From NCBI GenBank assembly GCA_020851035.1, contig JADZDM010000005.1, forward strand, positions 310,001 through 374,000: a stretch of DNA of 64,000 nucleotides, given 5' to 3'. The stretch comes from Gemmatimonadaceae bacterium (GTDB taxonomy: Bacteria > Gemmatimonadota > Gemmatimonadetes > Gemmatimonadales > Gemmatimonadaceae). Every line of letters begins with the position of its first letter. Within the stretch, counting starts at the first letter, position 1. The notes under the pieces were generated by a model. The model had not been told where the DNA came from, did not search any database, and worked only from the letters and a program-made list of their open reading frames with translations. The position numbers and the translations under genes are program-made. Shown piece by piece: positions 19,694-43,135 of the stretch.

Positions 19694-19757
19694 GGTCTGG
19701 GGGCGGACCGGGCTCCGGCCTGGAAGGGCCAAGTCATTGACACACAAGTGTTTACGC

Positions 19758-19777
19758 TTCGGCACGGCACGTGCTTT
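19758..19777 (+). promoter_or_regulatory. Sigma-54-type promoter of glycan operon A
   Basis: TTCGGCACGGCACGTGCTTT has the invariant GG and GC dinucleotides separated by exactly 10 bases, with GGCAC at -24 and TGCTTT at -12. It lies 38 bases upstream of the methyltransferase start. It matches 16 of 20 bases with the element before the epimerase gene. A start of transcription near 19786 is inferred. Confidence 0.7.
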
Positions 19778-19815: not shown

Positions 19816-20733
19816 ATGTCGCTGCCGCAGCTGGTGTATCCGTGGACGCAGGAGCCCTCAGCTCCCGTAGCTGTGCCGGCCGGTGCCGGCCTGGCGGTCG
19901 CCGCCGCCTCCGCGCTCCACGACCGAGGGTATGTGGGGACGGCGATCGCGATCGCCGCTGCGATGGGCGACGTGACCCGTGCGGAGGGGTGGCGTGCGAC
20001 GCAGGCTGCCGATGCCGCACTGGCCGTGGCGCTGGCCGCACGAGCGGTGCGCGACACGTCGGTGCCCTCGGTGACGGTGGACGAGAGCGGGGTGCCGCGA
20101 TTCACCGTGCGCGCGCCCGACATCGACACGGCACTGGCGGCGCTGGCCGAGGAACATGCCGGTGACGGCGTGGATGCCGAGCTGCGGCTGTTCCTGGATG
20201 AAGCGCTGCAGAGTGGCGACCGCTTCGTGGATGCGGCGCCTGGCCTGGGGTTCGCGGCGCTGAGTGCCGCCAGCTCGCGGGCGGCGGCCTCGGTGCTGGT
20301 GCTGAGCGAGCACGAGGACGAGCGGCACGCGATCGAGCTCGGCGCCCGGGAGAGTGACCTGGGCAGCCTGGTGACGGTGCGCCCGCCGACCGTGCTGGAC
20401 GCGGTGCCGACGTCGGCGCTGGTGAGCGGGGGCACGACGATCCTGCACGCCGGCGGCGCAGGGGACGTGGCGCCGCTGCTGCGTGGTGCGCGTCGCGCGC
20501 TGGAGCGGGGTGAGATCGGGGCGGTGGCCTGGCGCTGCGGTGCATCCGGCGATGCCGGGCGGGATGCCGAGCACCTGCAGGTGGCAGCGGCGGTGCTCGG
20601 CGTGTTCGGCTTCCAGCACTTTGCCTTGGCGGAGGGCGCTGGTGGGGTGGAGCTGGTGCCGGCCGAGGCGATGGCGAGCAACGCGATGGTCTTCTCCCTG
20701 AGCCCGGCGCTGCTGGAGCGTTTCGGCGGATGA
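19816..20733 (+). CDS. FkbM-like SAM-dependent methyltransferase
   Basis: A 305-residue protein, ATG preceded by GAGGA at good spacing. The N-terminal 100 residues are Ala-rich and helical. FVDAAPGLGFAALSAASS (about residues 136-153) corresponds to the SAM-binding motif I in the FkbM form (FVDVGANxGxxTL), although Gly-Ala-Asn is changed to Ala-Pro-Gly. VLVLSEHEDERHAIE follows as motif-like post I. FkbM enzymes O-methylate sugars and other small molecules; the altered motif I leaves activity uncertain. It is the first gene of glycan operon A, and its stop overlaps the next start (ATGA). Confidence 0.6.
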   Translation: MSLPQLVYPWTQEPSAPVAVPAGAGLAVAAASALHDRGYVGTAIAIAAAMGDVTRAEGWRATQAADAALAVALAARAVRDTSVPSVTVDESGVPRFTVRAPDIDTALAALAEEHAGDGVDAELRLFLDEALQSGDRFVDAAPGLGFAALSAASSRAAASVLVLSEHEDERHAIELGARESDLGSLVTVRPPTVLDAVPTSALVSGGTTILHAGGAGDVAPLLRGARRALERGEIGAVAWRCGASGDAGRDAEHLQVAAAVLGVFGFQHFALAEGAGGVELVPAEAMASNAMVFSLSPALLERFGG

Positions 20734-22820
20734 TCGCATCCGCGGTGCGGCCGGTGCCGGTGACCCCCGCCACGTCCGTGCAGGCGGCGGCCGCGGACCT
20801 GTTCGACTGCCTCGCGAGCTCGGAGAGCGACGAGTACGATCGCACCGGCCGGCTGCCAACGGCAGGTGCGGTCGCGCTCTCCGAGATCGCGGCGCTCTCG
20901 ACCATCACGACGGTCACGAGCTTCGACATCTTCGACACGCTGGTGGTGCGCAAGGCGGCGTCGCCGCGGGACGTGTTCCTGCACCTGGCGACCCCGGAGC
21001 CGTTCGCGTCGTGGGGCCTGGACGCGGTCCGGCTGCAGCAGCAGCGCATCGAGGCGGAGATGGTGGCGCGGCAGAAAGGGCTGGTGGCGCGCCGCTCGGC
21101 CGAGGTGACGCTGACGGAGATCCACGCCGAGCTGGCGGTGCTCCTGCAGCGGAACGCGTCGGAGGTGCCGGCGATGGTGCGCGCGGAGCGACTGATCGAG
21201 CGGGCGCTGTGCGTGGCGCACCCGCAGCTGAAGCGCACCTTCGACGCCGCCCGAGAAGCCGGCCGCGCGGTGTGGTGCGTGAGTGACACGTACCACGAGG
21301 CGGAGTTCCTGCGGGAGCTGCTGGTGTCGTGCGGCTACACGCTGGATGGCGTGCAGGTGGTGAGCTCGGCGGACCGGCGGATGAGCAAGGGCGACGGCCG
21401 CCTGCTGCCGGCCGTCGCAGCAGACGCGGGTGTCGCGCCGTCGGATGTGCTGCACATCGGCGACCACCCGGATGCCGACGGGAGCACGCCGTTCCGGCTC
21501 GGCTTCCGCGTGGTGGTGCATCCGTGGGCGGCCAGTCGCCACTCCGACGCGCCGGCGTCGTCTGCCGGCGACTCCGTGGCACTCGGCCTGTCGCAGGTCT
21601 GTGCGCGGTCGATCGAGCCGCCGTTCCCGTTCTGGTGGCGCTTCGGGTACTCGGTGGCCGGTCCGATGCTGAGCGCGTTCGCCCTCTGGCTGCGCGACCG
21701 GTTCGCGGCCGACGGCATCGATCGCGCGTACTTCCTGCTGCGCGACGGCGAGATTATCGAGGCGGTGTACCGGATCCTGGCCGGAGACGGTGCGGGTCCG
21801 TCCACGGCGCTGCTGGAATCGTCGCGCCGGGCCTTCGTGCTGCCGGCGGTGGAGACCGGGCGCAGCACGATCACGAGCCAGCTGCTGGCATACGAGAACC
21901 CGCGGCCGGCCGGCGACTTCCTGGCACGGATCGGACTGCGAGCGCAGGACTTCGCGGCCGCGTTCCGTGCGGTGGGGCTCTCGCCGGACACGGTGATCGA
22001 CCGCTCCGACCATTCGGGCTTCACGCGCGTGATGGCGCTGTTCTCGCGGACGGAGGTGGCGACGGCGCTGGTGAAGCGCGCGCAGGCCGAGCGGGCACTG
22101 CTCTGGAAGTACCTGCGGCAGGAGGGGGTGCTGGCGCCGGGGCGCATCGCGCTGGTGGACATCGGATGGAGCGGCACGATCCAGAAGGCGCTGGTGGGCG
22201 CGGCCTCACTCCAGCATCATCCCCTCGACGTGCATGGCTACTACCTCGGGACCCTGCGTGCGATCGAGGCTGACCTGGGTGGGAGCCGCGCGACCGGGTT
22301 CCTGTTCGACGCCGGCGCACCGGAGCGGCAGGCGCGCGCGATCCTGCACCTGCGGCAGCTGGTGGAGTTCATCTGTACGACGGAGAGCGGCAGCCTGCGC
22401 GGGTTCGCGGCAGACGGCGCGCGCGTGGTGCCGGTGCACGGCGCCGTGGACCATCCCGAGGGCCAGCGCGCGCACATCGCGCAGGTGCGGGAGGGGGTGC
22501 TGACGTTCGCGCGCGGGCTGGTGCAGGAGCGCCGCATGTTCGGTGCCCTGCCGATGACGGCCGACGCTGCGCTGCGCCACCTCGACCGCACGATCCTGCA
22601 GCCCACGGCCGAGGAGGCGCAGCAGATCGGCGACCTGCGTCATGGGGAAGGGTTGGGGACCGACGGGTTGCGCGCGTTCGCGCGGTTCCGCGACGGGCCG
22701 TTCTCGCCGTCGTCGCTGATGCGTGACCACGCGGACGCCTACTGGCCCACGGGGCTGCTCGCGCGCCGCGAGCCGGCGGCGCTGGCACTGCGCTCGCTTC
22801 TCTGGCTGCGTGGTGCGTGA
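20730..22820 (+). CDS. HAD-superfamily protein of polysaccharide clusters (COG5610-like)
   Basis: A 696-residue protein. Residues about 60-260 hold a HAD phosphatase-like domain: motif I SFDIFDTLVV, motif II VSDTYHE, motif III SKGDG and motif IV HIGDHPDAD are all present. The remaining 430 residues (FWWRFGYSVAGPMLSAFALWLRD, then YFLLRDGEIIEAVYR, and VDIGWSGTIQKAL) have no recognised fold. Large proteins of this type occur in capsule, O-antigen and surface-glycan clusters; their reaction is not known to me. It is coupled to the genes on both sides: it starts within the previous stop and its end overlaps the next gene. Confidence 0.7.
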   Translation: MIASAVRPVPVTPATSVQAAAADLFDCLASSESDEYDRTGRLPTAGAVALSEIAALSTITTVTSFDIFDTLVVRKAASPRDVFLHLATPEPFASWGLDAVRLQQQRIEAEMVARQKGLVARRSAEVTLTEIHAELAVLLQRNASEVPAMVRAERLIERALCVAHPQLKRTFDAAREAGRAVWCVSDTYHEAEFLRELLVSCGYTLDGVQVVSSADRRMSKGDGRLLPAVAADAGVAPSDVLHIGDHPDADGSTPFRLGFRVVVHPWAASRHSDAPASSAGDSVALGLSQVCARSIEPPFPFWWRFGYSVAGPMLSAFALWLRDRFAADGIDRAYFLLRDGEIIEAVYRILAGDGAGPSTALLESSRRAFVLPAVETGRSTITSQLLAYENPRPAGDFLARIGLRAQDFAAAFRAVGLSPDTVIDRSDHSGFTRVMALFSRTEVATALVKRAQAERALLWKYLRQEGVLAPGRIALVDIGWSGTIQKALVGAASLQHHPLDVHGYYLGTLRAIEADLGGSRATGFLFDAGAPERQARAILHLRQLVEFICTTESGSLRGFAADGARVVPVHGAVDHPEGQRAHIAQVREGVLTFARGLVQERRMFGALPMTADAALRHLDRTILQPTAEEAQQIGDLRHGEGLGTDGLRAFARFRDGPFSPSSLMRDHADAYWPTGLLARREPAALALRSLLWLRGA

Positions 22821-24681
22821 CGTGGCGCTGCCGGTCTTGCTGTTGTCCGCCGGTGCGGCGCCTGAGGCCGTGGCGCGCACGCTCGCCTCGCTCGGATCGC
22901 AGACCGTGCGGGTGTCGGTGCACACGGACCAGCGTGCCCTGGCCGGGCTGACGTCGGAGCATGTCGGGCTGGTGGTGGCGGGGGCGACGCTCGATGCCAC
23001 GGCCTGCGAACGCGCGGCGTGGTTCCTGTCGACGCATCCGGGTGTGCCGTGCGTGACGGGGGCAGCGGCGGGGACGCCGGCGGGAGCGCCAGCGCCCGAC
23101 CTGCTGTCGGCCGCGCTGCAGTTCGTGGTGGGGCGGCGCGAGCTCGTGCAGCAGCTGCTGGCGACGCTGCCGGCGCTGCATCCGTCGACGGCGCTGGCGT
23201 TCCTGATCGGTGCGCGGGGCACATGCGGCCGTGGTGCCGGCTGGCTCACCGAGCCCGTCCTGCGCGGTGCGGTGGATGCTGCGGTGTGCGCGACGCTGGT
23301 GTCGCAGGCGCGCGAGGCACTGCCGCAGCTGGGCCTGACCGAGGCAGCGCTGTTCGACCACGCGGCCGGCGGGTTGCCGGCGCATCCCCTGCAGCGGCTG
23401 ATGCGCACCGAGGCGCCGGCGGTGACGGTGGTGCGTGCGCCATCGCGCGGCGGTGGGGTGCGCCTGCTGGCCCTGCTCCAGGGCTTCCCGATGGGCGGCT
23501 ACACGGTGTTCAACACCGAGCTGCTGCCGCGCCTGGCCGAAGCTGGCCACGTGGTGACGACCTGCACCACCGAGTGGTGGCGCAGCGACTGGCGCCTGGA
23601 GCAGGTGCGGGCGGTGGCGCCGGACATCCACCATCCACACGCCGCAGTGCCGGCAGCCGCGGTCCCCGCATACATCGACTGGCTGATCACGACGCGCGGC
23701 ATCGAGGTGGTGCTGCTGAGCCACAGCCTGCTGGGCTTCCATGCGCTGCCGTGGCTGCGGGCGCGCCATCCCGAGGTGGCGTTCGTGGACTTCGTGCACA
23801 CCGACTGGTTCGAGCAGGCCATGTACGGCAGCTACGCGACGCTCGCGACGCTGTTCGAGGGCCAGCTGGATGCGCAACTCGCGACGAGCGACACGCTGGC
23901 GTCGCAGCTGGTGGCGGGAGGGTGCCCGCGCGACGGCGTGCGCACGGCGCACATCGGCATCGACACCGCGCTCTGGCGGCATGACGGGGACCGGCTGGCG
24001 GTGGTGCGGGAGTCGTTCGGGGCGGGGCCGGAGACGCTGGTGCTGCTGTTCGCGGGACGGATCGCGCCGGAGAAGCGCCCGCACCTGGCGGTTGAGGTGG
24101 CGGCGGCGCTGCGCGACGACGGGCGCGACGTGGTGCTGGTGTTCGCCGGTGAAGGTCCGGAGCTGCGCCGTGTGCACGAGCGGGCTGCGGCGCTGGGCCT
24201 CCTGCCGCGCTGTCACTTCCTGGGTGAGCTGGACGAGCACACGCTGCGCCACGTGTACGCTGCCGCCGACGTGTTCCTCGCGCCCTCGGAGATCGAGGGG
24301 ATCTCGCGCAGCCTGTACGAGGCGATGGCGATGGGCTGCGTGCCGGTGGTGTCGGATGTGGGCGGACAGCGCGAGCTGGTGGTGCCCGGGACGGGCAGCC
24401 TGGTGGATGCCGGCGGCAGCGGCGCGGCGCCGTACGTCGAGGGGGTGCGGCCGTGGCTCGACCGGACGGCGCGGGGGGCGGCGCGGGTGGCGGCTCGGGC
24501 CCACGTCGTGAATCGCTTCGACATCACGCGGACGGTGTCGGTGGTGACCGAGGCGCTGGCACTGGCCCGCCGCCGGCGCGCGGAGCGGCAGGCCGTGCTG
24601 CCGGTGGCGATGGGCGAGGCGCTCGCGGTGCAGGCGCTGGAGACGATCCGGCGCCACGTGCTGCGGTCGATGGGCCGCTAG
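22810..24681 (+). CDS. Family-4 glycosyltransferase with extra N-terminal domain
   Basis: About 623 residues. The start is uncertain: GTG codons at 22810, 22813 and 22822 are all usable. Residues 1-200 look like a reduced GT2-type fold (PVLLLSAGAAPEAVARTLASL) without a clear DxD motif. From about 215 on there is a GT-B glycosyltransferase: LLQGFPMGGYTVFNTELLPRL, AGRIAPEKRPHLAVEV and the EIEGISRSLYEAMAMG nucleotide-sugar motif with two Glu seven residues apart. It transfers a sugar from a nucleotide donor, probably on the cytoplasmic side. It is the last gene of operon A, followed by a hairpin. Confidence 0.82.
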   Translation: MVRDVALPVLLLSAGAAPEAVARTLASLGSQTVRVSVHTDQRALAGLTSEHVGLVVAGATLDATACERAAWFLSTHPGVPCVTGAAAGTPAGAPAPDLLSAALQFVVGRRELVQQLLATLPALHPSTALAFLIGARGTCGRGAGWLTEPVLRGAVDAAVCATLVSQAREALPQLGLTEAALFDHAAGGLPAHPLQRLMRTEAPAVTVVRAPSRGGGVRLLALLQGFPMGGYTVFNTELLPRLAEAGHVVTTCTTEWWRSDWRLEQVRAVAPDIHHPHAAVPAAAVPAYIDWLITTRGIEVVLLSHSLLGFHALPWLRARHPEVAFVDFVHTDWFEQAMYGSYATLATLFEGQLDAQLATSDTLASQLVAGGCPRDGVRTAHIGIDTALWRHDGDRLAVVRESFGAGPETLVLLFAGRIAPEKRPHLAVEVAAALRDDGRDVVLVFAGEGPELRRVHERAAALGLLPRCHFLGELDEHTLRHVYAAADVFLAPSEIEGISRSLYEAMAMGCVPVVSDVGGQRELVVPGTGSLVDAGGSGAAPYVEGVRPWLDRTARGAARVAARAHVVNRFDITRTVSVVTEALALARRRRAERQAVLPVAMGEALAVQALETIRRHVLRSMGR

Positions 24682-24688
24682 GCACCGT

Positions 24689-24716
24689 CTGCCGGACCGC
24701 AGGCCCGTCCCGGCAG
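24689..24716. terminator. Possible terminator hairpin
   Basis: A 7-bp inverted repeat (CTGCCGG/CCGGCAG) with a 14-base loop just after the glycosyltransferase stop. It is weaker than the other hairpins in the window. Confidence 0.4.
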
Positions 24717-24776
24717 GCCCTGCCGATCGACGCGGCGGCCCTGAATCGTAAACGCTTGTATGGCAAGGACTTGTGT

Positions 24777-24796
24777 TTCGGCATGGGGTGTGCTTT
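24777..24796 (+). promoter_or_regulatory. Sigma-54-type promoter of glycan operon B
   Basis: TTCGGCATGGGGTGTGCTTT has GG and GC separated by 10 bases, GGCAT at -24 and TGCTTT at -12. It lies 62 bases before the epimerase ATG in an unusually A/T-rich stretch (TCGTAAACGCTTGTATGGCA). It is nearly identical to the element at 19758. Confidence 0.7.
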
Positions 24797-24858
24797 CCGG
24801 GGGGGCTGGGGCCGTGTGCCCTGCACCTGACACTTCCCGACCACGCGCTGGACACCCA

Positions 24859-25872
24859 ATGGCCGACATTCGCGGCAAGACGATCTGTGTCATCGGAGGC
24901 GCCGGCTTCATCGGCTCCCACGTGGTGGATGAACTGCTCACGCGCGACGTGAAGCAGGTGATCATCTACGACAACTTCTGCCGTGGCACGGTGGACAACC
25001 TGACCGACGCGCTGCGGGACCCGCGGGTCAGGATCTTCGAGGCGGGGGGCGACGTGCTGCACTCCGACGTGCTGGGTGCGGCGGTGCGCGAGAGCCAGTG
25101 CGTGGTGCACCTCGCCGCACTCTGGCTGCTGCAGTGCCACGAGTACCCGCGGGTGGCGTTCGACGTGAACGTCCGCGGCACGTTCAACGTGCTGGAGGCG
25201 TGCCAGCAGCATGGCATCGAGCGGCTGGTGTACTCGTCGTCGGCGTCGGTGTACGGCGATGCGGTGGAGCTGCCGATGACGGAGTCGCACCCGTTCAACA
25301 ACCGCACGTTCTACGGCGCGACGAAGATCGCGGGCGAGGCGATGGCGCGTGCCTATGCCGACCGCTACGGGCTCTCGTACGCCGGCCTGCGCTACATGAA
25401 CGTCTACGGGGCCCGGCAGGACTACAAGGGCACGTACATCGCGGTGATCATGAAGATCCTCGACCGGCTGGACCAGGGGCTCTCGCCGGTGCTGATGGGC
25501 GACGGCTCGGCGGCCTACGACTTCATCTACGTGAGCGACTGCGGCCGCGCGAACGTGCTGGCGCTGGAGAGCGACGCGCGCGACGAGTGCTACAACGTGG
25601 GCAGTGGCGTGCAGACGTCGCTGCGCGAGCTGACGGAGCTGATCCTCGAGCTCCGCGGGTCGGACCTGCCGATCGAGTACCGGCCGGCGGACCGGGTGTT
25701 CGTGACCAACCGCGTGGGGTGCCCCGAGAAGGCGGCGCGCGACCTGGGCTTCCGCACGACGGTGCCGCTGCGCGCGGGGCTGGCGCGGCTGATCGCGTGG
25801 CGTGACACGCACATCGGGCGGGTGAACGCGCAGGCCGCGGGCCGCCCGCTGCAGCTGCTCACGACCGCCTGA
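24859..25872 (+). CDS. NAD-dependent nucleotide-sugar epimerase/dehydratase
   Basis: A 337-residue extended SDR enzyme. It has GGAGFIGSH (NAD binding, residues 12-20), YSSSASVYG, the active-site pair YGATK and the NVYGARQ region. The C-terminal domain has RPADRVFVTNRVGCPEKA. Such enzymes make UDP-glucose/galactose-type epimers or related sugars; the exact substrate cannot be read. It is the first gene of operon B and 10 bases separate it from asnB. Confidence 0.88.
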   Translation: MADIRGKTICVIGGAGFIGSHVVDELLTRDVKQVIIYDNFCRGTVDNLTDALRDPRVRIFEAGGDVLHSDVLGAAVRESQCVVHLAALWLLQCHEYPRVAFDVNVRGTFNVLEACQQHGIERLVYSSSASVYGDAVELPMTESHPFNNRTFYGATKIAGEAMARAYADRYGLSYAGLRYMNVYGARQDYKGTYIAVIMKILDRLDQGLSPVLMGDGSAAYDFIYVSDCGRANVLALESDARDECYNVGSGVQTSLRELTELILELRGSDLPIEYRPADRVFVTNRVGCPEKAARDLGFRTTVPLRAGLARLIAWRDTHIGRVNAQAAGRPLQLLTTA

Positions 25873-25882
25873 CGCGCGCGCC

Positions 25883-27814
25883 ATGTGCGGCATCGCCGGC
25901 ATCGTGAACGTGCAGGGCACCCCCGTCTCGCCGGGGGTGCTGCGTGCGATGACCGACATCGTGCGCCACCGCGGGCCGGACGGCGAGGGACAGTGGATCG
26001 GCGCCGGCGTGGGGTTCGGGCACCGCCGGCTGGCGATCGTGGACCTGTCACCCACGGGGGCGCAGCCGATGCACAGCGACGACGGGTCGCTGGTGGTCAC
26101 GTTCAACGGCGAGATCTACAACTGGCGCGAGCTGCGCACGGAGCTGGGCCGGCGCGGTGCGGTGTTCCGCACGCAGAGTGACACCGAGGTGCTGCTGGCG
26201 GCGTACCGGGCCTGGGGAGCGAAGTGCCTCGAGAAGCTCAACGGCATGTTCGCCTTCGCCATCTTCGACGCGCGCGAGCAGCGGCTGTTCCTGGCGCGCG
26301 ACCGGTTCGGCATCAAGCCGCTGTACTACCGCTGGGACGGGAGCACGCTGCTGTTCGGGTCGGAGATCAAGTCGATCCTGCAGCACCCGGCAACGACCGT
26401 GCGCGTGGACCATGCCGCGCTGGGCGAGTACTTCTCGTTCCAGAACGTGTTCAGTGACGGCACGCTGTTCCGTGACATCAAGCTGCTGCCGCGCGCGCAC
26501 TCGATCACGCTCGACATGGGGCGCCCCCAGTCGTTCGCGGTGGCCCGCTGGTGGGACTACCAGTTCGTGGAGGAGAAGGGTGTCAGCGAGGGGGAATACC
26601 TCGAGGAGCTGGATCGCCTCTTCCGCCAGGCGGTGGACCGGCAGGTGCAGGCCGACGTGGAGGTGGGCACGTACCTCAGCGGCGGCATCGACTCCGGTGC
26701 GGTGACCTGCCTCACGGCGGGGCGCCACCCGAACGTGAAGAGCTTCACGGCGGGCTTCGACGTGTCGTCGGCGTCGGGGCTGGAGCTGGCGTTCGACGAG
26801 CGGGCCAAGGCCGAGGTGCTGAGCGCGGCGTACCGCACGGAGCACTACCAGGTGGTGCTGAAGGCGGGCGACATGGAGCGGGTGCTGCCGGACCTGGTGT
26901 GGCACCTCGAGGACCTGCGCGTGGGGCAGAGCTACCCGAACTACTACATCTCGCGCCTGGCATCGCGGTTCGTGAAGGTGGTGCTGGCGGGGACCGGTGG
27001 TGACGAGATCTTTGCCGGCTATCCGTGGCGCTATTACCGCGCGGTGAAGAACGACGATGCCGCGCAGTACCTCGACAAGTACTACGCGTACTGGCAGCGC
27101 CTGGTGCCGGACCAGCACCGCGCGACGTTCTTCCAGCCGGCGGTGGCGCAGGCGCTGGTGACGCACCCGCCCGAGGCGGCGTTCCGCAACGTGCTGCGCC
27201 GGCGCTCGTTCCTGGCGATGACGCCGGACGACTACGTGAACCACTCGCTCTACTTCGAGCTCTCCACCTTCCTCAGCGGGCTGCTGGTGGTGGAGGACAA
27301 GCTGTCGATGGCGCACGGCCTGGAGACGCGGGTGCCGTTCCTGGACAACGACCTGGTGGACTTCGCGCTGCGGGTGCCGGTCAAGTACAAGCTGAAGAAC
27401 GTGGACCGCATCGTGCGGATGGACGAGAACACGCCGGGCCGGAAGGGACAGCAGTACTTCGACGAGACCGGTGACGGCAAGCTGCTGTTGCGCAAGGCGC
27501 TCTCGCGCTACGTGCCGGCCGGCTACGCGAACGGGCGCAAGCAGGGCTTCTCGGCGCCGGATGCGGGGTGGTTCCGCGGGCAGAGCATCGAGTACATCCG
27601 GCGCCTGCTCCACACGCGTGATGCGCGGATCTACGAGTTCCTCGACCCCGTCACGGTCGGCGTGCTGCTCGACGAGCACATGGCCGGCCGCGTGAACCAC
27701 CGCCTGGTGATCTGGTCGCTGCTCTGCTTCGAGTGGTGGCTGCGCCGCTTCCGCGACGGCGAGTCCACCGTCACCGCCACCGTTCCACCACTCCCCCGGG
27801 AGCATGCCGCATGA
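25883..27814 (+). CDS. asnB: Asparagine synthase (glutamine-hydrolysing), AsnB
   Basis: A 643-residue two-domain enzyme. The N-terminal class II glutaminase begins MCGIAGI with the catalytic Cys2 and has the RHRGPDG and FNGEIYN motifs. The synthase domain has the ATP-pyrophosphatase loop LSGGIDSGA near residue 265 and ETRVPFLDNDLVDFA. In surface-glycan clusters AsnB homologues are thought to amidate sugar carboxylates, which fits this location; free asparagine synthesis is the alternative. The stop overlaps the next start (ATGA). Confidence 0.88.
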   Translation: MCGIAGIVNVQGTPVSPGVLRAMTDIVRHRGPDGEGQWIGAGVGFGHRRLAIVDLSPTGAQPMHSDDGSLVVTFNGEIYNWRELRTELGRRGAVFRTQSDTEVLLAAYRAWGAKCLEKLNGMFAFAIFDAREQRLFLARDRFGIKPLYYRWDGSTLLFGSEIKSILQHPATTVRVDHAALGEYFSFQNVFSDGTLFRDIKLLPRAHSITLDMGRPQSFAVARWWDYQFVEEKGVSEGEYLEELDRLFRQAVDRQVQADVEVGTYLSGGIDSGAVTCLTAGRHPNVKSFTAGFDVSSASGLELAFDERAKAEVLSAAYRTEHYQVVLKAGDMERVLPDLVWHLEDLRVGQSYPNYYISRLASRFVKVVLAGTGGDEIFAGYPWRYYRAVKNDDAAQYLDKYYAYWQRLVPDQHRATFFQPAVAQALVTHPPEAAFRNVLRRRSFLAMTPDDYVNHSLYFELSTFLSGLLVVEDKLSMAHGLETRVPFLDNDLVDFALRVPVKYKLKNVDRIVRMDENTPGRKGQQYFDETGDGKLLLRKALSRYVPAGYANGRKQGFSAPDAGWFRGQSIEYIRRLLHTRDARIYEFLDPVTVGVLLDEHMAGRVNHRLVIWSLLCFEWWLRRFRDGESTVTATVPPLPREHAA

Positions 27815-28992
27815 GCCAGGTTCCGATCACCAAGGCGATCTTCGACGCCGACGACCTCGCGACGATCCTCGAGCCGCTGAAGAGCGGCTGGGTGGTGCAG
27901 GGGCCGTACGTGGCGGCGTTCGAGCGCGACTTCTCCGGGTGGACGCAGGCCGGCCACGCGATGGCGACCACGTCGTGCACGACCGCGTTGCAGCTGGCGA
28001 TGGCTGCGCTGCGGCTCGGACCGGGCGACGAGGTGCTGGTGCCGGCCTTCACCTGGATCGCCACCGCCAACGTGGTGGAGCACTGCGGTGCGAAGGCGGT
28101 GTTCGTGGACGTGGACCTGCACACGTTCAACATCGACCCGGACCTGCTCGAGGCGGCGATCACGCCGCGCACGGTCGGGATCATCCCGGTGCACCTGTTC
28201 GGGCAGCCGGCGCCGATGGGCCGGATCATGGCGATCGCGCGCGCGCACGGGCTGTGGGTGGTGGAGGATGCCGCCTGCGGCTTCGACACCTGGCTGGACG
28301 GGCGCCACGTGGGGACGTTCGGTGACTTCGGCTGCTTCTCGTTCCACCCGCGGAAGTCGATCACGACCGGCGAGGGGGGGATGGTCACCACTGACCGCGC
28401 CGACCACGCCGCGCTGATCCGCACGCTCCGCGACCATGGCGCGAGTCGCTCCGACCTGGAACGGCACGAGCAGCGCCACGCCTTCCTGCTGGCCGAGTAC
28501 CGGCACCTGGGCTTCAACTACCGCATGACCGACCTGCAGGGCGCGCTGGGCACGAGCCAGCTGCGCAAGGCGGCGTGGATCATGGCCGGTCGCCGGCAGG
28601 CCGCGGCATGGTACGACGCGATGCTCGCGGGTGTCGAGTGGCTGCGCACGCCGCGGCGCGATCCCCGGGTGCGCCACGGCGAGCAGTCGTACGTCTGCCT
28701 CTTCCAGCCGGAGGCGCCGACCCTGGGGAACGTGGACCGGCTCTTCGCCCGGCGGAACGACGGCATGTCGGCGCTCGAGTCGCAGGGCATCGTGACGCGG
28801 CAGGGGACGCACGCCCCGCCGCACCTGCACTACTACGCCGCGGCGTACGGCTACCAGCCGGCGGACTTTCCCGCCGCCTACCTGGCCGAGCGCTGCAGCA
28901 TCACGCTGCCGATGTATGCCGGGATGACGGAAGGGGACTGCGCACGGGTGGTGGAGGCCTTGCATGCCGTGTTCGCAGGCGTGCCGGCATGA
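27811..28992 (+). CDS. DegT/DnrJ/EryC1/StrS aminotransferase
   Basis: A 393-residue PLP sugar aminotransferase. It shows VQGPYVAAFERDF near the start, DAACGFDTW, the lysine motif FHPRKSITTGEGGM and FNYRMTDLQGALG, all typical of the family. The product would be an amino-deoxy sugar nucleotide from the keto sugar made upstream. It is coupled by four-base overlaps to asnB and to the acyltransferase, so keto sugar, amine and acyl group could be added in gene order. Confidence 0.92.
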   Translation: MSQVPITKAIFDADDLATILEPLKSGWVVQGPYVAAFERDFSGWTQAGHAMATTSCTTALQLAMAALRLGPGDEVLVPAFTWIATANVVEHCGAKAVFVDVDLHTFNIDPDLLEAAITPRTVGIIPVHLFGQPAPMGRIMAIARAHGLWVVEDAACGFDTWLDGRHVGTFGDFGCFSFHPRKSITTGEGGMVTTDRADHAALIRTLRDHGASRSDLERHEQRHAFLLAEYRHLGFNYRMTDLQGALGTSQLRKAAWIMAGRRQAAAWYDAMLAGVEWLRTPRRDPRVRHGEQSYVCLFQPEAPTLGNVDRLFARRNDGMSALESQGIVTRQGTHAPPHLHYYAAAYGYQPADFPAAYLAERCSITLPMYAGMTEGDCARVVEALHAVFAGVPA

Positions 28993-29579
28993 GCACCGAG
29001 ACGCAGGACGGCATGGCGGTGCTCGAAGCCGGACTGCGCGCGCTGCATGCGACGCGCTCGGTGGAACTGCGCCAGCGCTTCGATCGCAGCCTCCCGTTCG
29101 GCGAGATGGTGGTGGACCGCTGGGCGCGCGCGCGCGCACTCGGCTTCGGTGACGGCGCCTCGATCTACGACAGTGCGGTGGTGATCGGCACCGTGCAGGT
29201 GGGCGAGCTCACCTGGATCGGGCCGCAGGTGCTGCTGGACGGCTCCGGCGGGCTGGCGATCGGTGCCACCTGCTCGATCTCGGCCGGCGTGCAGGTCTAC
29301 ACGCACGACTCGGTGGCCTGGGCACTGTCCGGCGGCAATGCCGCCTACGAACGCGCGCCGGTCTCGATCGGGGACCACTGCTACATCGGCCCGATGAGCG
29401 TGATCACGAAGGGCGTGACGATCGGGCGGCACTGCCTGGTGGGCGCCAACAGCGTGGTGAAGCAGTCGCTCCCGGACCACAGCATCGCGGTGGGGAGCCC
29501 CGCCCGCATCGTGGGGCGTGTGGTGCTGGACGCGGCCAGCGGTGTGACGCTGCAGTACGACCGCGACGGGACCCGGTGA
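28989..29579 (+). CDS. Hexapeptide-repeat acyltransferase (sugar N-acyltransferase)
   Basis: A 196-residue left-handed beta-helix protein. Hexapeptide repeats run from about residue 60 to 175 (GTVQVGELTWIGPQVLLDGSG, GVTIGRHCLVGANSVV, AVGSPARIVG). The insert near HDSVAWALSG is where related enzymes place the catalytic His. It probably acylates the amino group made by the aminotransferase directly upstream, with which it overlaps. Confidence 0.85.
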   Translation: MSTETQDGMAVLEAGLRALHATRSVELRQRFDRSLPFGEMVVDRWARARALGFGDGASIYDSAVVIGTVQVGELTWIGPQVLLDGSGGLAIGATCSISAGVQVYTHDSVAWALSGGNAAYERAPVSIGDHCYIGPMSVITKGVTIGRHCLVGANSVVKQSLPDHSIAVGSPARIVGRVVLDAASGVTLQYDRDGTR

Positions 29580-30355
29580 TGACCGGGACACGCGCCAGCC
29601 GCGCACCGGCGGAACTGCTCATCACGCTCGACGTGGACTGGGCGCCGGACCACGTGATCGATGCCGTCGCGGGGCAGCTGGCCGCTGCCGGCGTGCGCGC
29701 GACATGGTTCATCACACATGCGAGTCCCGCTGTCGAGCGGCTGCGGGAGCGTGGCGACCTGTTCGAACTGGGAATCCACCCGAACTTCATGCCGGGATCG
29801 ACGCATGGCGCGACGGTGGACGCCGTGCTGGCGCACTGCCTGGCGCTGGTGCCGGAGGCGCGGGTGATGCGCACGCACGGACTGGTGAGCTCCTCGCGGC
29901 TGCTGGACGAGGTGCTGGCACGCTCGGAGATCCGCATCGACTCGAGCCTGCTGCTGCGCCGGCACCCGAACCTGGGTGTCGTGGAGCAGCCTTTCCCGCA
30001 CGGCGTGCTCGCGCGCGTGCCGATCTGGTGGGAGGATGACGTGGAGCAGCTCGCCGTCGATCCGCTCTGGGATGTGTCGGCGCCGGGTGGCGGCGGACTG
30101 CGGGTGCTGAACTTCCATCCCGTGCACGTGGCGCTGAACGGCGCCACGGCAGCGCCGTATGCGGCACTGAAGGCCGCGTGGCCGGTGCTTGCCGATGCAC
30201 CGGCGGAGGCCTTCACACGGCACCGCGCGACCGGCGACGGGCCGGCGACGGCCTTCACGCGCGCACTGGCCACGCTGCAGGCCGCCGCCGGCGGCCGCAC
30301 GCTGGGCATGCTCGTGCCAGACACAGCGCCCGCACCACACCCGGCCTGTGCCTGA
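29579..30355 (+). CDS. Polysaccharide deacetylase-like protein
   Basis: About 258 residues. The start ATG overlaps the previous stop (TGATG). It matches the NodB fold loosely: TLDVDWAPD near the N-terminus gives the Asp pair, ATWFITHAS follows, and FELGIHPNF carries one metal His. The second HxxxH pair of true deacetylases is not evident; the form resembles the shortened deacetylase-like proteins of O-antigen clusters. It may deacetylate a glycan precursor or be inactive. Confidence 0.7.
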   Translation: MTGTRASRAPAELLITLDVDWAPDHVIDAVAGQLAAAGVRATWFITHASPAVERLRERGDLFELGIHPNFMPGSTHGATVDAVLAHCLALVPEARVMRTHGLVSSSRLLDEVLARSEIRIDSSLLLRRHPNLGVVEQPFPHGVLARVPIWWEDDVEQLAVDPLWDVSAPGGGGLRVLNFHPVHVALNGATAAPYAALKAAWPVLADAPAEAFTRHRATGDGPATAFTRALATLQAAAGGRTLGMLVPDTAPAPHPACA

Positions 30356-30385
30356 GCACTCCACACCCCTGCACCCCCACGTTCC

Positions 30386-31366
30386 ATGACCCTCGCCACC
30401 GTTCCCACTCCAAAGTCACCCACGCTGCCACGTGCGATCGAGCGCCTTGGCCTGGCCGGACTCGTGGCACCGGAGGCGATGGCCTCGGCGGCGCAGGACC
30501 AGACCGCGGATACCTTCGGCTACAAGTGGCACCGGACCGAGACGTTCACCTCGCAGCCGGTGCAGGCGATGTCACGCACGTGGATGCTCGATCGCTACTG
30601 CGGTGGTGACGAGGCGCGGCTGGACGAGTGGCTGGCGGAGCCGGGGCGCCTGATCGTGGACGCCGGCTGCGGCGCGGGACACTCGGCGCTGGCCCTGTTC
30701 GGCGATCGCCTGCGTGCGCACGACTACCTCGGCATCGACATCTCGACCGCGGTGCGGGTGGCAGCGGCGCAGTTCGCGGCGCGCGGCATTCCCGCCGGCT
30801 TCCTGCAGCATGACCTGACCACGGTTCCGCTGCCGGCAGGGTCAGTGGACCTGCTCTTCAGCGAGGGGGTGCTGCACCACACCGACGACACGCGGGCGGC
30901 CTTCCTGCACCTGGCGCGCGCGCTGGCGCCGGGCGGGCGGTTCCTGGCCTACGTGTATGCGAAGAAGGGACCGGTTCGCGAGTTCACGGACGATCACATC
31001 CGCGCGCAGCTTGCCGCGCTGGACAACGACGCGGCCTGGCGCGCGCTGGAACCGCTGACGCGGCTCGGCATCGCCCTCGGCGAGCTGGGTGCCACCGTGC
31101 ACGTGCCCGAGGCCGTGCCGCTGCTGGGCATTCCCGCCGGCCCGATCGACGTGCAGCGGCTGTTCTACTGGCATGTCTGCAAGCTGTTCCATCGCCCCGA
31201 GCTGACGCTCGACGAGATGAACCACATCAACTTCGACTGGTTCCGGCCGGCCAACTGCCACCGCCACACCCCCGGCGAGGTGGAGGCGTGGTGCGCCGAG
31301 GCCGGGCTGTCCGTGGAGCGGCTGCACGTGGAAGAGGCGGGGATCACCGTGGTGGCCCGCCGCTGA
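30386..31366 (+). CDS. SAM-dependent methyltransferase
   Basis: A 326-residue class I methyltransferase. Motif I is VDAGCGAGHSALALFG, post I LGIDIST, and VDLLFSEGVLHHTDDT is the motif IV region. The C-terminal 120 residues (LNFDWFRPANCHRHTPGEVEAWC) are specific to a subgroup found in glycan and lipid clusters. A 30-base gap separates it from the deacetylase-like gene and its stop overlaps the next start (TGATG). Confidence 0.82.
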   Translation: MTLATVPTPKSPTLPRAIERLGLAGLVAPEAMASAAQDQTADTFGYKWHRTETFTSQPVQAMSRTWMLDRYCGGDEARLDEWLAEPGRLIVDAGCGAGHSALALFGDRLRAHDYLGIDISTAVRVAAAQFAARGIPAGFLQHDLTTVPLPAGSVDLLFSEGVLHHTDDTRAAFLHLARALAPGGRFLAYVYAKKGPVREFTDDHIRAQLAALDNDAAWRALEPLTRLGIALGELGATVHVPEAVPLLGIPAGPIDVQRLFYWHVCKLFHRPELTLDEMNHINFDWFRPANCHRHTPGEVEAWCAEAGLSVERLHVEEAGITVVARR

Positions 31367-32259
31367 TGCGGATCCGGCTGTCCGACCTCGCGTCGCTGGT
31401 GACGATCGACATCGTCCGGGACGGCGCGTTCAGCACGCTCGGCGCGGCCACGTCGGGCACGGCGGACACGCTGGTGTTCGTGGAGGAGCCGAGGTGGCTC
31501 CGTGGCCTGCAGGGCAACCCGCACGTGTCGTCGGTGCTCACGACGCCGGCGCTGGCCAGCCAGGTGCCCGACGGGGTGGCGGTGGCGGTGTGTGCATCGC
31601 CGCGGCGCGCGTTCTTCGAGCTGCACAACCTGCTGGCCCGGACCGACGGGTTCTACTGGACCGACTTCGCCACCGAGGTCGACCCCACGGCGCGCATCCA
31701 TCCGCGCGCGTACGTGGCCGAGCGCAACGTGCGCATCGGGGCCGGCTGCGTGGTGGAGCCGAACGCCACGGTGCTCGAGCGCTCCGTGCTGGGTGCGGGT
31801 GTGGTGCTGCGCAGCGGGTGCACGATCGGCTCGCAGGGCTTCGAGTTCAAGCGCGTCGACGGGCGGATCCTGGCCGTGACCCATGCCGGCGGCGTGCGGC
31901 TGGGGGATGCGGTGGAAGTGCAGGCCAACAGCGCCATCTCCCGCGCCGTCTTCGGCGGCTTCACGGAGCTCGGCAGCGAGACCAAGCTCGACAACCTCGT
32001 ACACGTCGCGCACAACGTCCGCATCGGCCGCCGCTGCCTGCTGGCGGCCAGCGCGATGATCGCCGGCAGCGCCACCCTCGGCGATGACGTGTGGGTGGGG
32101 CCAGGGGTCTCGGTGTCCAGCGGCGTCACCGTCGGCGACGGCGCGACCCTCACGATCGGCGCCGTGGTGACGCGCGACGTCGACCCGGGCCAGCGCGTGA
32201 CCGGGAACTTCGCCGTGGACCATGCACGGTTCCTGTCACACCTCCGGACGCTGCGGTGA
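31366..32259 (+). CDS. LpxD-like hexapeptide acyltransferase
   Basis: A 297-residue protein. An N-terminal uridine-binding-like domain (residues 1-100) is followed by a beta-helix of hexapeptide repeats (ERNVRIGAGCVVEPNATV to GDGATLTIGAVV). The segment LDNLVHVAHNVRIG aligns with the LpxD catalytic IAHN histidine. It lies inside the glycan island without other lipid A genes, so it is more likely a sugar acyltransferase in this pathway than the lipid A enzyme itself. Confidence 0.78.
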   Translation: MRIRLSDLASLVTIDIVRDGAFSTLGAATSGTADTLVFVEEPRWLRGLQGNPHVSSVLTTPALASQVPDGVAVAVCASPRRAFFELHNLLARTDGFYWTDFATEVDPTARIHPRAYVAERNVRIGAGCVVEPNATVLERSVLGAGVVLRSGCTIGSQGFEFKRVDGRILAVTHAGGVRLGDAVEVQANSAISRAVFGGFTELGSETKLDNLVHVAHNVRIGRRCLLAASAMIAGSATLGDDVWVGPGVSVSSGVTVGDGATLTIGAVVTRDVDPGQRVTGNFAVDHARFLSHLRTLR

Positions 32260-35123
32260 CGATGACGATCCTCCTGCTGCACGGGGCGGTGCTGGTGCTG
32301 GCCACGACACTGGCACGGTTCGCCTTCCTGACGGCCGCCACCACGGCCTCGAGCGACAACGTCGGCTCGGTGCGCGTGACCGAGGCCCAGCGCCGGAGCC
32401 GCTGGCTCAGCTTCGACGTGTCGAACTCCGTCTTTCCGGGCACGTATGGCTATCCACCGCTGGTGTTCTGGCTGGTGAGCCGGTTGCCGCGGCGTCTCTG
32501 GACGCGCGGGCGCTACTGGGCGAACTACCTCGCCGACACGGCGTCGGCGCTGCTGGTGTGGGCCGCGATCCGGGTGCTGGCGCCGGCGCTTCCGGGCGAG
32601 GTGGCGCTGCTGGCGGCACTGGGATTCGGACTCAACCCGCTGCTGCTCCCGACGGTGGACCATGCGCGCATCACGGCCCCGAACGCGCGATCGTTCGGGT
32701 TGCTGCTGAACACGCTCTGGATCCTGCTGCTGGTGGCCTGCGTGGCGCGCGGTGATGCGTGGCTGGCGGCCGTCCTCGTGCCGCTGACGTGGCTGATCAT
32801 CCTCACCTCGCAGTTCGGGATGCAGACGATGTTCGGCGTGACGACACTCGTGTCGCTGCTCAGCGGCAACTGGTGGCCCACCGCCGCGATGTTCGTCGCG
32901 ACCCTGGTGGGTTGCGCGATTCCCGGTCTTGGCGTGTGGGCCGTGCTGCACCACAAGTTCGCGCACTGGCGATGGTACCGTCGCGTGCAGCGCACGATCG
33001 TGAACGTGGTGAGCCTGCGGGCGATGCCGGTGCGCACGCGCGTGGCCGCCTTCCTGCGACTGCTGGCGCACCCCGTGCGTGACGGGCACGCGCTCGGCCA
33101 CGCGTTCCAGACCTCGCCGTGGTGGAAGATGCTGGCGGGTGTGCTGCCGCTGGTGGTGGCACTCGCGCTGGCGCTGTCGAACCGGACGGTCGATGCCGCG
33201 CTCGCGGATCCGGTGGCTCGCGCCCTCGCGCAGGTGTCGCTGGCCGCTGGCATACTGTTCGTGCTGACGCTGCTGCCGCCACTCCTGTTCCTGGGTGAGG
33301 CGGAACGGTACGTGGAGCACTGCCTCGCGGCGATCGTCGTGCTGGCGGTGCTGCTGGTGGCTGCCGTGCCATCGCTGGCGCTGACGGCCACGGTGCTCGG
33401 CTTCTCGCTGGTGCTCGCGGTGACGGTCGCACAGCTCGCGCACCGGCAGTGGCCCGCGGCGCAGGCGGCGCTGCACTATCCGCAGGTGGGGTTCGGCGAG
33501 GAGCGCGCGCTGCTGTCGGCGCTCGTGCGTCGCGGTTCCCCCGTGCGCATCGCAACGGTGCCGGTGAAGGCCGCCTTCCTGCTGCACGACCTGCTCATCG
33601 ACAGTGCCGAGCCCGGGTCGGAGCGCGTGGAGTTCCTCTTCCAGCACACGCTGCAGCAGGGGGACGACCACTTTGCCTACCTGCTCGAGGACACCACCGA
33701 TGGGTACACGTACCTGCGCGGAGAACTGGACCGCCTGGTCAGCCGGTACGGCATCAACTTCATGCTGGTGGAGACGGCGCTGCTGCGGGACGCCGGCAAC
33801 CGCGAGCCGATCCTGGAAGCGCTGCGGCTGCGCACGCCGGTGCACAGTGGCCGGTTCACCCTCTATTCGCTGCACGACGTGGCAGCGGCTCCGGCACCCG
33901 CGGTGCCAGTCGCCGCGCCGGTGCCGCTGCCGGCGGAGCACAGCATGACACCTCCCGGGACGGTTCCCGCCCATGCCGGCGTGCCGGTGCCGGCGCCACG
34001 GCCCGCGCCGCGCCCGCGGATCCTCGCGATCGCGGACGTGCCCGACTGGATCTTCGAGCGGCACGTCCGGACGCTGCAGGTGGCGTTGCAGGACGAGTTC
34101 GAGATCGTGCTGCACTACCACACCATGCCGTTCGACGAGGATGCGTTCGACCTGGTCTACGCGATGGAGTTCGGCCTCGTGCCCACGGCACAGATCCGGT
34201 CGCCGTGGAAGTACGTCACGGCGGTGCGGTCACACGTGAGCTGGGAGAACGTGCCGGCGGAGCAGCTCGCGCACTACCTGCGGGCCCACTTCCAGCGCAC
34301 GCACGTGGTGTCGCGGCGGCTGCAGCGGGCGCTGTCGCCGTGGCTGCCTGACGTGGCGTATGTCACGCACGGCATCGACGGCGAGCGATTCCGGCCGGTG
34401 GTGCGCGAGGGGCGTACCGGCACGATCCGCGTGGGGTGGGCCGGCAACCGGAACACTGCCACCAAGGGGTTCGCCGACTTCATCGCGCCGCTGGCCGCAC
34501 TGCCAGGCGTGGAGCTCGTGTTCTGCGGGTATGCCGACCGGAACCTGACGCTGGACGAGATGCCGGCGTTCTATTCATCGATCGACGCCTACGTGTGCAC
34601 CTCGCAGACCGAGGGCAACAACAACTCGCTGCTCGAGGCGGCCGCCACCGGCGCGGCGATCGTCACCACCGAGGCCGGCACGGTGCCGGAGTACCTCGTG
34701 GACGGCGAGTCGGCGCTGGTCGTGCGACGCGAACCGGTGGCGTTCGCCGATGCGGTCCTGCGCCTGCGCGACGACCCCGCGTTGCGCGCCCGACTCGGCC
34801 GTGCCGCGTCGGCGGCAGTGATCCCGGCGTGGACCTGGGCCTGTCGCGCCGAGGACTACCGCCTGTTCCTCCGCGCTGCGGTGGACGGGCGGGAGGCGGC
34901 CCGGCTGCGGATGCGCGAGGTGCCGCCGCTGACCACGCTGTCGGTGGGTGGTGCGCCGCCGTTCGACCTCGCGGCGGCGGTGGATGCCGTGCAGCTCGCG
35001 GTGGGCGAGGGGCGGGTGGAGGATGCGCTGTCGTGGCTGGCGCAGCTGGCCGTGCATGATGCCTCGAACCCCGTCTGGCCGTCGCTGATCGAGGAGCTCG
35101 GCGGCGCATCACGCGCAGCGTGA
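32256..35123 (+). CDS. Membrane protein fused to family-4 glycosyltransferase
   Basis: About 955 residues; a GTG overlapping the previous stop is used, with an ATG two codons later as alternative. Residues 1-480 hold about ten membrane segments in a layout like GT-C glycosyltransferases (GFGLNPLLLP, TWLIILTSQFGMQTM, AGILFVLTLLPPLLFLG). A Pro/Ala-rich linker around 560-585 leads to a soluble GT-B domain (585-900) with the donor-binding segment TEGNNNSLLEAAATG. One polypeptide could therefore have two transfer activities or a membrane anchor plus transferase. It is the last and largest gene of the island. Confidence 0.78.
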   Translation: MTMTILLLHGAVLVLATTLARFAFLTAATTASSDNVGSVRVTEAQRRSRWLSFDVSNSVFPGTYGYPPLVFWLVSRLPRRLWTRGRYWANYLADTASALLVWAAIRVLAPALPGEVALLAALGFGLNPLLLPTVDHARITAPNARSFGLLLNTLWILLLVACVARGDAWLAAVLVPLTWLIILTSQFGMQTMFGVTTLVSLLSGNWWPTAAMFVATLVGCAIPGLGVWAVLHHKFAHWRWYRRVQRTIVNVVSLRAMPVRTRVAAFLRLLAHPVRDGHALGHAFQTSPWWKMLAGVLPLVVALALALSNRTVDAALADPVARALAQVSLAAGILFVLTLLPPLLFLGEAERYVEHCLAAIVVLAVLLVAAVPSLALTATVLGFSLVLAVTVAQLAHRQWPAAQAALHYPQVGFGEERALLSALVRRGSPVRIATVPVKAAFLLHDLLIDSAEPGSERVEFLFQHTLQQGDDHFAYLLEDTTDGYTYLRGELDRLVSRYGINFMLVETALLRDAGNREPILEALRLRTPVHSGRFTLYSLHDVAAAPAPAVPVAAPVPLPAEHSMTPPGTVPAHAGVPVPAPRPAPRPRILAIADVPDWIFERHVRTLQVALQDEFEIVLHYHTMPFDEDAFDLVYAMEFGLVPTAQIRSPWKYVTAVRSHVSWENVPAEQLAHYLRAHFQRTHVVSRRLQRALSPWLPDVAYVTHGIDGERFRPVVREGRTGTIRVGWAGNRNTATKGFADFIAPLAALPGVELVFCGYADRNLTLDEMPAFYSSIDAYVCTSQTEGNNNSLLEAAATGAAIVTTEAGTVPEYLVDGESALVVRREPVAFADAVLRLRDDPALRARLGRAASAAVIPAWTWACRAEDYRLFLRAAVDGREAARLRMREVPPLTTLSVGGAPPFDLAAAVDAVQLAVGEGRVEDALSWLAQLAVHDASNPVWPSLIEELGGASRAA

Positions 35124-35154: not shown

Positions 35155-36276
35155 TCAGTGACCGGCGGACTGCACCAGGGCCGTCACGTGCGCGCCAATG
35201 GCGAGTGACGCGGTGAGGCCGGGGGACTCGATGCCGAAGCAGTGCACCACGCCGCGCACGCCATGGGACCGCGGCCCGTCGATGCGGAAGTCGGCGGCCG
35301 GTGCACCGCGGGCGCTGAGCTTGGCGCGGAAACCGGCGTAGGCGGGCCGCAGTGCGTCGTCCGGGAGCCCGGGCCAGTAGCGCTGCACCTCGCGCGTGAA
35401 GGCGGTGGCGCGGGCGGGATCGACCGTCAGCGTGCGCGGTGCGCCATCCGGGAGCCACTCGACGTCGGGGCCGAAGCGTGCCTGGCCGGCCATGTCCAGG
35501 GTGAGGTGAATGCCAAGCCCGCCATCGAACGGCACCGGGTACACCAGGTGTGCGAACGGGACGGCACCATCGAGCGCAAAGTAGTTGCCCTTGGCGACGT
35601 GCAGCGGTGGAATGTGCGTGCCGGGGAACCCGTCGAGCCGTCGTGCCACCGCCTGTGCATCCAGGCCGGCGCAGTTGATGATCCAGCGGGCGTCGATGCG
35701 GAATCCGTCGGCCTCCGTCGTCGTCACGCGCCAGGCATCGCCGATGCGCTGCGCACTGCTGAGTGCGGTGCGCAGCACGATGGCCGCACCGCCCAGCTCA
35801 GCGTCGCGGCGCAGTGCGGCCATGAGGGCGTGTGTGTCCACGATCGCGGTCTCCGGCGACCAGAGGGCGGCGTGGCAGGTGAGGGCCGGCTCCAGGGCAC
35901 GGGCCTCGCTGCCGGTGAGCCGTTGCAGCGAGGTGACGCCGCAGGCGAGTGCCCGCGCCTCGATCGCCTCGAGCGCAGGGCGGTCGGCCTCACCGGCGGC
36001 CACCACCAGCTTGCCGATCCGGCGCCACGGAATGCCGTGCGCAGCGCAGTACCCCAGCAGCAGTTCGCGCCCGCCGGTGCAGAGCGACGCCTTGAGCGAG
36101 CCGGGGGTGTAGTACAGGCCGGCATGCACGACCTCGCTGTTGCGCGAGCTGGCGCCGGAGCCGATCACGTCGGCGGGGTCGAGCACGACGACGCTGTGGC
36201 CTGCCATCGCGAGTGCACGGGCGACGGCCAGGCCCACCACGCCGGCCCCGCTCACGAGGCAGTCGATGCGGTCCAT
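35155..36276 (-). CDS. FAD-dependent oxidoreductase, L-2-hydroxyglutarate oxidase (LhgO)-like
   Basis: A 373-residue DAO-family flavoprotein. The start at MDRIDCLVSGAGVVGLAVA places the FAD-binding GxGxxG at residue 10. SSRNSEVVHAGLYY is the LhgO-type FAD/substrate motif, and CFGIESPGLTASLAIG closes the FAD site. Members oxidise L-2-hydroxyglutarate or related 2-hydroxyacids and feed electrons to the membrane. It follows csrA on the same strand and converges with the last island gene. Confidence 0.85.
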   Translation of the reverse strand: MDRIDCLVSGAGVVGLAVARALAMAGHSVVVLDPADVIGSGASSRNSEVVHAGLYYTPGSLKASLCTGGRELLLGYCAAHGIPWRRIGKLVVAAGEADRPALEAIEARALACGVTSLQRLTGSEARALEPALTCHAALWSPETAIVDTHALMAALRRDAELGGAAIVLRTALSSAQRIGDAWRVTTTEADGFRIDARWIINCAGLDAQAVARRLDGFPGTHIPPLHVAKGNYFALDGAVPFAHLVYPVPFDGGLGIHLTLDMAGQARFGPDVEWLPDGAPRTLTVDPARATAFTREVQRYWPGLPDDALRPAYAGFRAKLSARGAPAADFRIDGPRSHGVRGVVHCFGIESPGLTASLAIGAHVTALVQSAGH

Positions 36277-36573: not shown

Positions 36574-36605
36574 CCTTGCGTCCCCAGTGCGAATTGTGGT
36601 CCTGC

Positions 36606-36629
36606 CGGGTGACGACTCCGCGTCACCCG
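36606..36629 (-). terminator. Hairpin between flgK and csrA
   Basis: A 9-bp perfect stem (CGGGTGACG/CGTCACCCG) with a 6-base loop in the 64-base space between flgK and csrA. It has no T-run, so it may be an attenuator or an mRNA processing or stability element rather than a terminator. Confidence 0.5.
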
Positions 36630-36637
36630 CTGCGAGA

Positions 36638-43018: not shown

Positions 43019-43135
43019 GCCGGTCGAAAGGTTCAAGTCGTTGCTGTGTAATGACTTGTGAGGCTCGTGCCACACCCGCCCTGCCCTGGCTCCCGGCAGT
43101 CCGTGCCGCGCTCGGCAGGCACTGCCGGGGTGCTC

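Follow-up and report, generated by a model that had tools for sequence, protein, structure and literature searches.

A probable modular flagellin-glycosylation island with a predicted ribofuranosyltransferase in the flagellar cluster of a Gemmatimonadaceae bacterium

Why should a block of sugar-modifying genes interrupt the flagellar cluster of a Gemmatimonadaceae bacterium, on the strand opposite to the flagellar genes, and what would its product decorate? The question arises from a 64,000-nucleotide stretch of genome GCA_020851035.1 (G000, 4.97 Mb), hereafter the window (contig JADZDM010000005.1, termed C5, positions 310001-374000). Eleven co-directional, head-to-tail genes of the plus strand (ISL1-ISL11) occupy positions 19816-35123, precisely the interval delimited in the initial annotation. 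The gene coordinates bear out the placement described there, since the island is bracketed by motB and motA (17126-18819) and by csrA and flgK (36319-38035), all on the minus strand. We consider it very probable that this is a modular flagellin-glycosylation island, a reading that includes the shared use of its sugars in a surface polysaccharide.

The strongest single test of a flagellar role is the distribution of ISL2 (20730-22820). Judging from its sequence, this protein is a phosphoribosyl pyrophosphate (PRPP)-dependent ribofuranosyltransferase with a HAD phosphatase module, which is a new assignment. It matched the ribofuranosyltransferase 7shg (phmmer E = 1.7e-13; Foldseek E = 2e-14) and Bcs3 (phmmer E = 5.8e-8). 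The structure model was usable in the HAD and core phosphoribosyltransferase (PRT) parts only; the PDB match was checked by sequence. ISL2 carries the motifs FDIFDTL (D66), LRDGE (R338, D339), and VDIGWSGTIQ. In Bcs3, the nucleophile of FDIFDTL is D386 in CrpP and the RDG motif is R679-D680 in CriT (PMC10299916); both are kept in ISL2 as D66 and R338-D339. A HAD module with the nucleophile aspartate and a PRT module with RDG, the sequence marks of PRPP-dependent ribofuranosyltransferases, are thus both present. Homologs of ISL2 were found in 5 of the 179 family genomes, every one in a flagellar locus and in an unbroken run with ISL1 and ISL3. Because of shared ancestry, the five cases count as two or more independent placements rather than five.

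Two sites within the flagellar cluster contained glycan genes: the motA-csrA slot in the three own-genus genomes (G000, G001, and G002) and the fliW-fliC slot in G181, G198, G204, and G023. In G181, a related Gemmatimonas (4.72 Mb, one contig) that we take to be, very probably, Gemmatimonas phototrophica, a homologous island between fliW and fliC has the order flgL-fliW-SDR-AsnB-DegT-MT-LbH-WbmS-membrane protein-(ISL1+ISL2 fused)-ISL3-GT4-(AsnB+GT4)-TPR-GT-fliC, where SDR is a short-chain dehydrogenase/reductase, MT a methyltransferase, GT a glycosyltransferase, and TPR a tetratricopeptide repeat. Identity to the window island was 81% for SDR, 72% for AsnB, 79% for DegT, 57% for ISL11, and 52% for ISL3. 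In the flgL-fliW context of G204, the genes after the ISL1-3 trio encode PseB, PseC, PseF, and PseI, each scoring higher than its NCBIfam equivalog cut-off, and the same layout in G198 runs on to TPR-GTs and fliC. This gives the flagellar cluster of relatives a full gene set for pseudaminic acid, classically a flagellar sugar. The slot of G023 contains genes for GT41, DegT, Gfo/Idh, LuxC, AMP-ligase, SDR, and GNAT proteins, while many other flagellated members that were checked have TPR-GT genes in the fliW-fliC interval, sometimes with an FkbM methyltransferase.

The motA-csrA slot contained no island in 15 genomes of other genera, where flgK, with or without csrA and a small gene, adjoins motA; csrA is joined to the small gene on a broken contig of G028, and flgK has other neighbours in the exceptions G027 and G056. 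In all three own-genus genomes the slot is filled, and the contents differ. G002 carries, beyond motA and the small gene, ISL1 (49% identity), ISL2 (64%), and ISL3 (70%); another of its contigs has the C-terminal half of ISL11 (65%) and a methyltransferase before csrA. The G001 slot encodes, on the other strand, a hexapeptide transferase, DegT, a GT, and a multi-GT protein. Absence in other genera and varied content in its own mark the slot as an insertion site that is specific to the genus and variable. This occupancy pattern, like the flagellar placement of ISL2 in 5 of the 5 genomes that have it, goes beyond what chance would give.

Genes combining TPR and GT9-like domains adjoin fliC in G000, G001, G002, G028, and others. 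Those of G000 flank flagellin outside the window, near 78.2-82.4 kb when counted in its coordinates. In these FlmG-like proteins the TPR part is clear, and the C-terminal domain matches Glyco_transf_9 (GT9) weakly (Pfam E of 2e-3 to 5e-5). Giant TPR + GT proteins of 1018-1226 aa are encoded directly before flagellin in several genera (L087:2861-6505, for which the domains were checked, L088:2000-5056, L089:2183-5863, L091:2188-5820, and L092:1991-5068).

The island is further linked to the flagellar genes by its predicted promoters. A 25-bp dyad box upstream of ISL1 (19730-19754, CAAGTCATTGACACACAAGTGTTTA; position weight matrix, PWM, score 23.8) precedes a plus-strand sigma-54 -24/-12 site (19759-19775, TCGGCACGGCACGTGCT; score 20 of 22) 57 bp ahead of the gene. 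ISL4 has a similar arrangement, with a dyad box at 24749-24773 (TAAACGCTTGTATGGCAAGGACTTG; PWM score 20.3) and a sigma-54-like site at 24778-24794 on the plus strand (TCGGCATGGGGTGTGCT; score 19.0). For comparison, the boxes of the flgF (43034-43058), fliQ (48400-48424), and fliL (57769-57793) operons scored 26.1, 24.8, and 23.3. Within 184 kb, sigma-54 scores of at least 20 were found ahead of four genes only, namely ISL1 and the fliQ, fliL, and flgB operons, compared with an expectation of 0.11 from shuffled sequence; a PWM built solely from flagellar promoters ranked flgF, fliQ, ISL1, fliL, ISL4, and flgB as its top six. These figures are indicative only, since the score weights and the dyad box were chosen after these promoters had been viewed. 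The genome contains rpoN, and an NtrC-type activator is encoded outside the window at 75132-76598 (window coordinates). Similar boxes and sigma-54 sites occur at glycan promoters in G001, G023, and G181 with an offset of 4-5, the offset at flagellar operons being about 15 or 27. Genome-wide, the box was found at 31 sites versus 4 for a reversed-pattern control, and it was intergenic in all sites examined. These 31 matches rule it out as a flagella-only signal and indicate a wider regulon. Taken together, the sites, five in the window and 26 elsewhere in the genome, suggest a sigma-54-linked regulon that takes in flagellar, glycan, pilin-like, and secreted-protein genes; the box is often accompanied by a sigma-54-like site at helically phased spacing (about 4-5, 15-17, and 26-28 bp). 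A 270-bp span ahead of a TetR-like gene (G000:C5:87802-88067, L152) contains three near-identical copies of the box pattern and looks like a local repeat. Sigma-28 control of the island was also considered, and the fliC-type motif CTCAAGTYC-N-GCCGAGACT was not seen ahead of ISL1 by eye.

Pfam and NCBIfam upheld the enzyme content read initially from the translations, namely epimerase, DegT aminotransferase, acyltransferase, AsnB, methyltransferase, and GTs; the Pfam families were GT4, SDR epimerase, AsnB (Asn_synthase + GATase_7), DegT, two hexapeptide acyltransferases, a methyltransferase, and a second GT4. ISL1 (19816-20733; 305 aa) had no Pfam match and resembles FkbM methyltransferases by eye only. 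ISL3 (22810-24681) is a predicted GT4 glycosyltransferase with an N-terminal extension (Glycos_transf_1, 6e-31). ISL4 (24859-25872; YGATK) carries SSSASVYGD in place of the TDE motif typical of 4,6-dehydratases and is therefore probably an SDR nucleotide-sugar epimerase/4-oxidoreductase. ISL5 (25883-27814) is an AsnB-type glutamine amidotransferase in which Cys2 and SGGIDS are kept, and ISL6 (27811-28992) is a DegT sugar aminotransferase with the pyridoxal phosphate-lysine motif SFHPRKS, closest to perosamine synthetase. ISL7 (28989-29579) is a putative hexapeptide sugar N/O-acyltransferase. ISL8 (29579-30355) belongs to the WbmS-like polysaccharide deacetylases, scoring 174 bits against PF22537 (3.7e-51; cut-off 27) and matching WbmS (PDB 3hft) at 2.4e-37 with the family alignment. 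ISL9 (30479-31366) is a predicted S-adenosylmethionine-dependent methyltransferase (Methyltransf_11, 1.3e-17), and ISL10 (31366-32259) is an LpxD-like hexapeptide acyltransferase with a score under the LpxD cut-off. ISL11 (32262-35123) is a fusion of two halves, first a polytopic membrane domain (up to about residue 560), which is a stand-alone protein in G181, and then a GT4 domain. The former resembles GT-C enzymes (SSDN and YPPL motifs) by eye only, and its AlphaFold model (pLDDT 37) was of no use for identification. As a group, ISL4-ISL9 resemble a WbmS-type O-antigen cassette, which is likewise a new assignment.

Besides ISL2 and ISL8, two neighbouring genes go beyond the initial annotation. 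A small plus-strand gene (18892-19635) between motA and the island is native, as its position is conserved in relatives. A minus-strand gene for a DAO-family FAD oxidoreductase (35155-36276) lies between the island and csrA, is not present in the slot of relatives, and may have arrived together with the island. Base composition gave no signal of recent transfer in G000 (0.715 in the island versus 0.708 in the window); the G001 island has a lower GC content than its own flank. A nonulosonate (pseudaminic/legionaminic acid) pathway was searched for in G000 and rejected: the sole NeuB-family match was DAHP-synthase-like by reading, and ISL4 and ISL6 stayed below the equivalog cut-offs of PseB (59 bits, cut-off 407) and PseC (285, cut-off 423).

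The initial annotation had proposed an amino-deoxy, acylated, and possibly amidated sugar for flagellin or the hook. For flagellin, the proposal gains support from the two flagellar slots, the Pse genes beside the trio, the TPR-GTs, and the shared promoters; for the hook, no specific support was found. We infer glycosylation, promoter activity, the order of steps, and the identity of the sugar from sequence. Transcription of ISL1 and ISL4 would start from the predicted sigma-54 promoters with the dyad box common to the flgF, fliQ, and fliL operons. ISL4 would make a 4-keto or epimerised nucleotide sugar and ISL6 would transaminate it, after which ISL7 and/or ISL10 could acylate the amine and ISL5 could amidate a carboxylate. 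ISL8 would remove an acetyl group, and ISL9, perhaps with ISL1, would methylate. The FlmG-like TPR-GTs would bind flagellin while it is still in the cytoplasm and initiate the glycan at Ser/Thr residues; its extension would fall to ISL3 and to the GT4 part of ISL11. ISL2 is expected to transfer ribofuranose-5-phosphate from PRPP and then to dephosphorylate it. The modified flagellin would then be exported and polymerised.

Several observations weigh against this scheme. In its own genus the island lies about 47 kb from fliC, and it contains no nucleotide-sugar dehydrogenase that could provide AsnB with a uronic acid. Should ISL11 be a GT-C enzyme working in the periplasm, flagellin would be out of its reach, because flagellin leaves the cytoplasm by direct export. 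The dyad-box sites include the vicinity of an exosortase/exopolysaccharide (EPS) locus and pilin-like genes, and WbmS-type cassettes occur in polysaccharide loci of other bacteria (L105, G093). The last point bears directly on the O-antigen or capsule target that the initial annotation had allowed for. In that case the island would build or cap an O-antigen, capsule, or exopolysaccharide and would have reached the flagellar cluster by chance insertion. ISL8 is closest to a protein of an O-antigen locus, a Rhodospirillales metagenome-assembled genome has homologs of SDR, AsnB, DegT, MT, and WbmS in a polysaccharide locus that includes an ABC ATPase, those in G093 adjoin a Wzz-like gene (by eye), and ISL11 has its polytopic membrane half. 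The cassettes outside the family mean that its sugar is portable, so that location is the main evidence. However, a homologous island occupies the other flagellar slot, and ISL2 is exclusive to flagellar loci. None of the 11 island proteins was recognised by Pfam or NCBIfam as a flippase, polymerase, exporter, or ligase (Wzx, Wzy, Wzm, Wzt, WaaL), and the proposed check for a separate polysaccharide cluster yielded two, on C12 and C20. We therefore regard this alternative as quite improbable: it is weakened by the separate clusters and the lack of recognised export and polymerisation genes in the island, and kept alive by the WbmS-type cassettes elsewhere. Another such cassette, with a formyltransferase, lies on a contig of G188 without recognised flagellar genes (L080:6894-15155) and possibly represents an N-formyl variant.

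Shared use, in which flagellin glycosylation and a surface polysaccharide would both draw on the island's nucleotide sugars, is unlikely, though less remote. In Aeromonas caviae, pseudaminic acid serves both purposes, as cited in a passage of PMC7591256; the separate polysaccharide clusters here have GTs of their own, and the sigma-54/box regulon spans flagellar and surface/EPS promoters. On the contrary, two GT genes and ISL2 within the island suggest a dedicated acceptor, and direct evidence of a second one was not found. That some other protein of the flagellum or cell surface, such as the hook, MotB, or a pilin, receives the glycan instead of flagellin seems very improbable. The own-genus island does adjoin motAB and flgK rather than fliC, and the box also precedes a pilin-like gene, but homologous genes adjoin fliW in G181, G198, and G204 and reach fliC, with TPR-GTs, in G181 and G198. 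All these readings overlap, and the likelihoods attached to them need not add up to one.

The island is similar to the flagellin glycosylation islands of Campylobacter, Aeromonas, Pseudomonas, and Geobacillus in being a block of sugar and GT genes in a flagellar cluster whose content varies between close relatives, here the three own-genus genomes. Unlike those islands, it lacks nonulosonate genes, carries a WbmS-type cassette and a ribofuranosyltransferase gene, uses two alternative slots, and belongs to the phylum Gemmatimonadota. By predicted domain layout, the TPR + GT proteins encoded beside flagellin may be akin to the FlmG system of Caulobacter crescentus (PMC7591256), and, as in that system, a pseudaminic acid pathway is present in G198 and G204, whereas in G000 it was not found and the GT9 match of the C-terminal domain is weak. 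The Bordetella wbm O-antigen locus (WbmS, PDB 3hft; PMC3849452) also has a WbmS-family deacetylase among sugar genes, but the island lies in a flagellar cluster and has no ABC exporter. In the fusion of a HAD phosphatase to a PRPP transferase, ISL2 is similar to 7shg, Bcs3 (PMC10299916), and the Klebsiella O4/O7 enzymes (PMC11231755), which build capsules or O-antigens, whereas ISL2 is part of a flagellar island. A text search of open-access papers turned up nothing on glycosylated flagellin in Gemmatimonadota, and no ribofuranosyltransferase of a flagellar glycan surfaced in a limited literature search.

PufL/PufM-type reaction-centre genes were found in G000 (G000:C25:101773-103431), so this organism is probably phototrophic; G181 carries reaction-centre genes as well. 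A bolder model, which we consider possible but short of probable, is that a conserved ISL1-3 core is combined at either flagellar site with exchangeable sugar cassettes, among them the pseudaminic acid pathway, governed by a shared sigma-54/dyad-box promoter, and that the flagellin glycan of this phototrophic Gemmatimonadota lineage is of a new type, combining ribofuranose with an O-antigen-type amidated amino sugar. The flagellin-glycosylation reading is directly testable, because a homologous island lies beside fliC in a cultured relative, very probably G. phototrophica, whose strain AP64 forms one polar flagellum (PMC9862903). If correct, it would extend flagellin O-glycosylation to Gemmatimonadota, show the recruitment of O-antigen-type sugar cassettes to flagella, and tie glycan genes to flagellar sigma-54 control.

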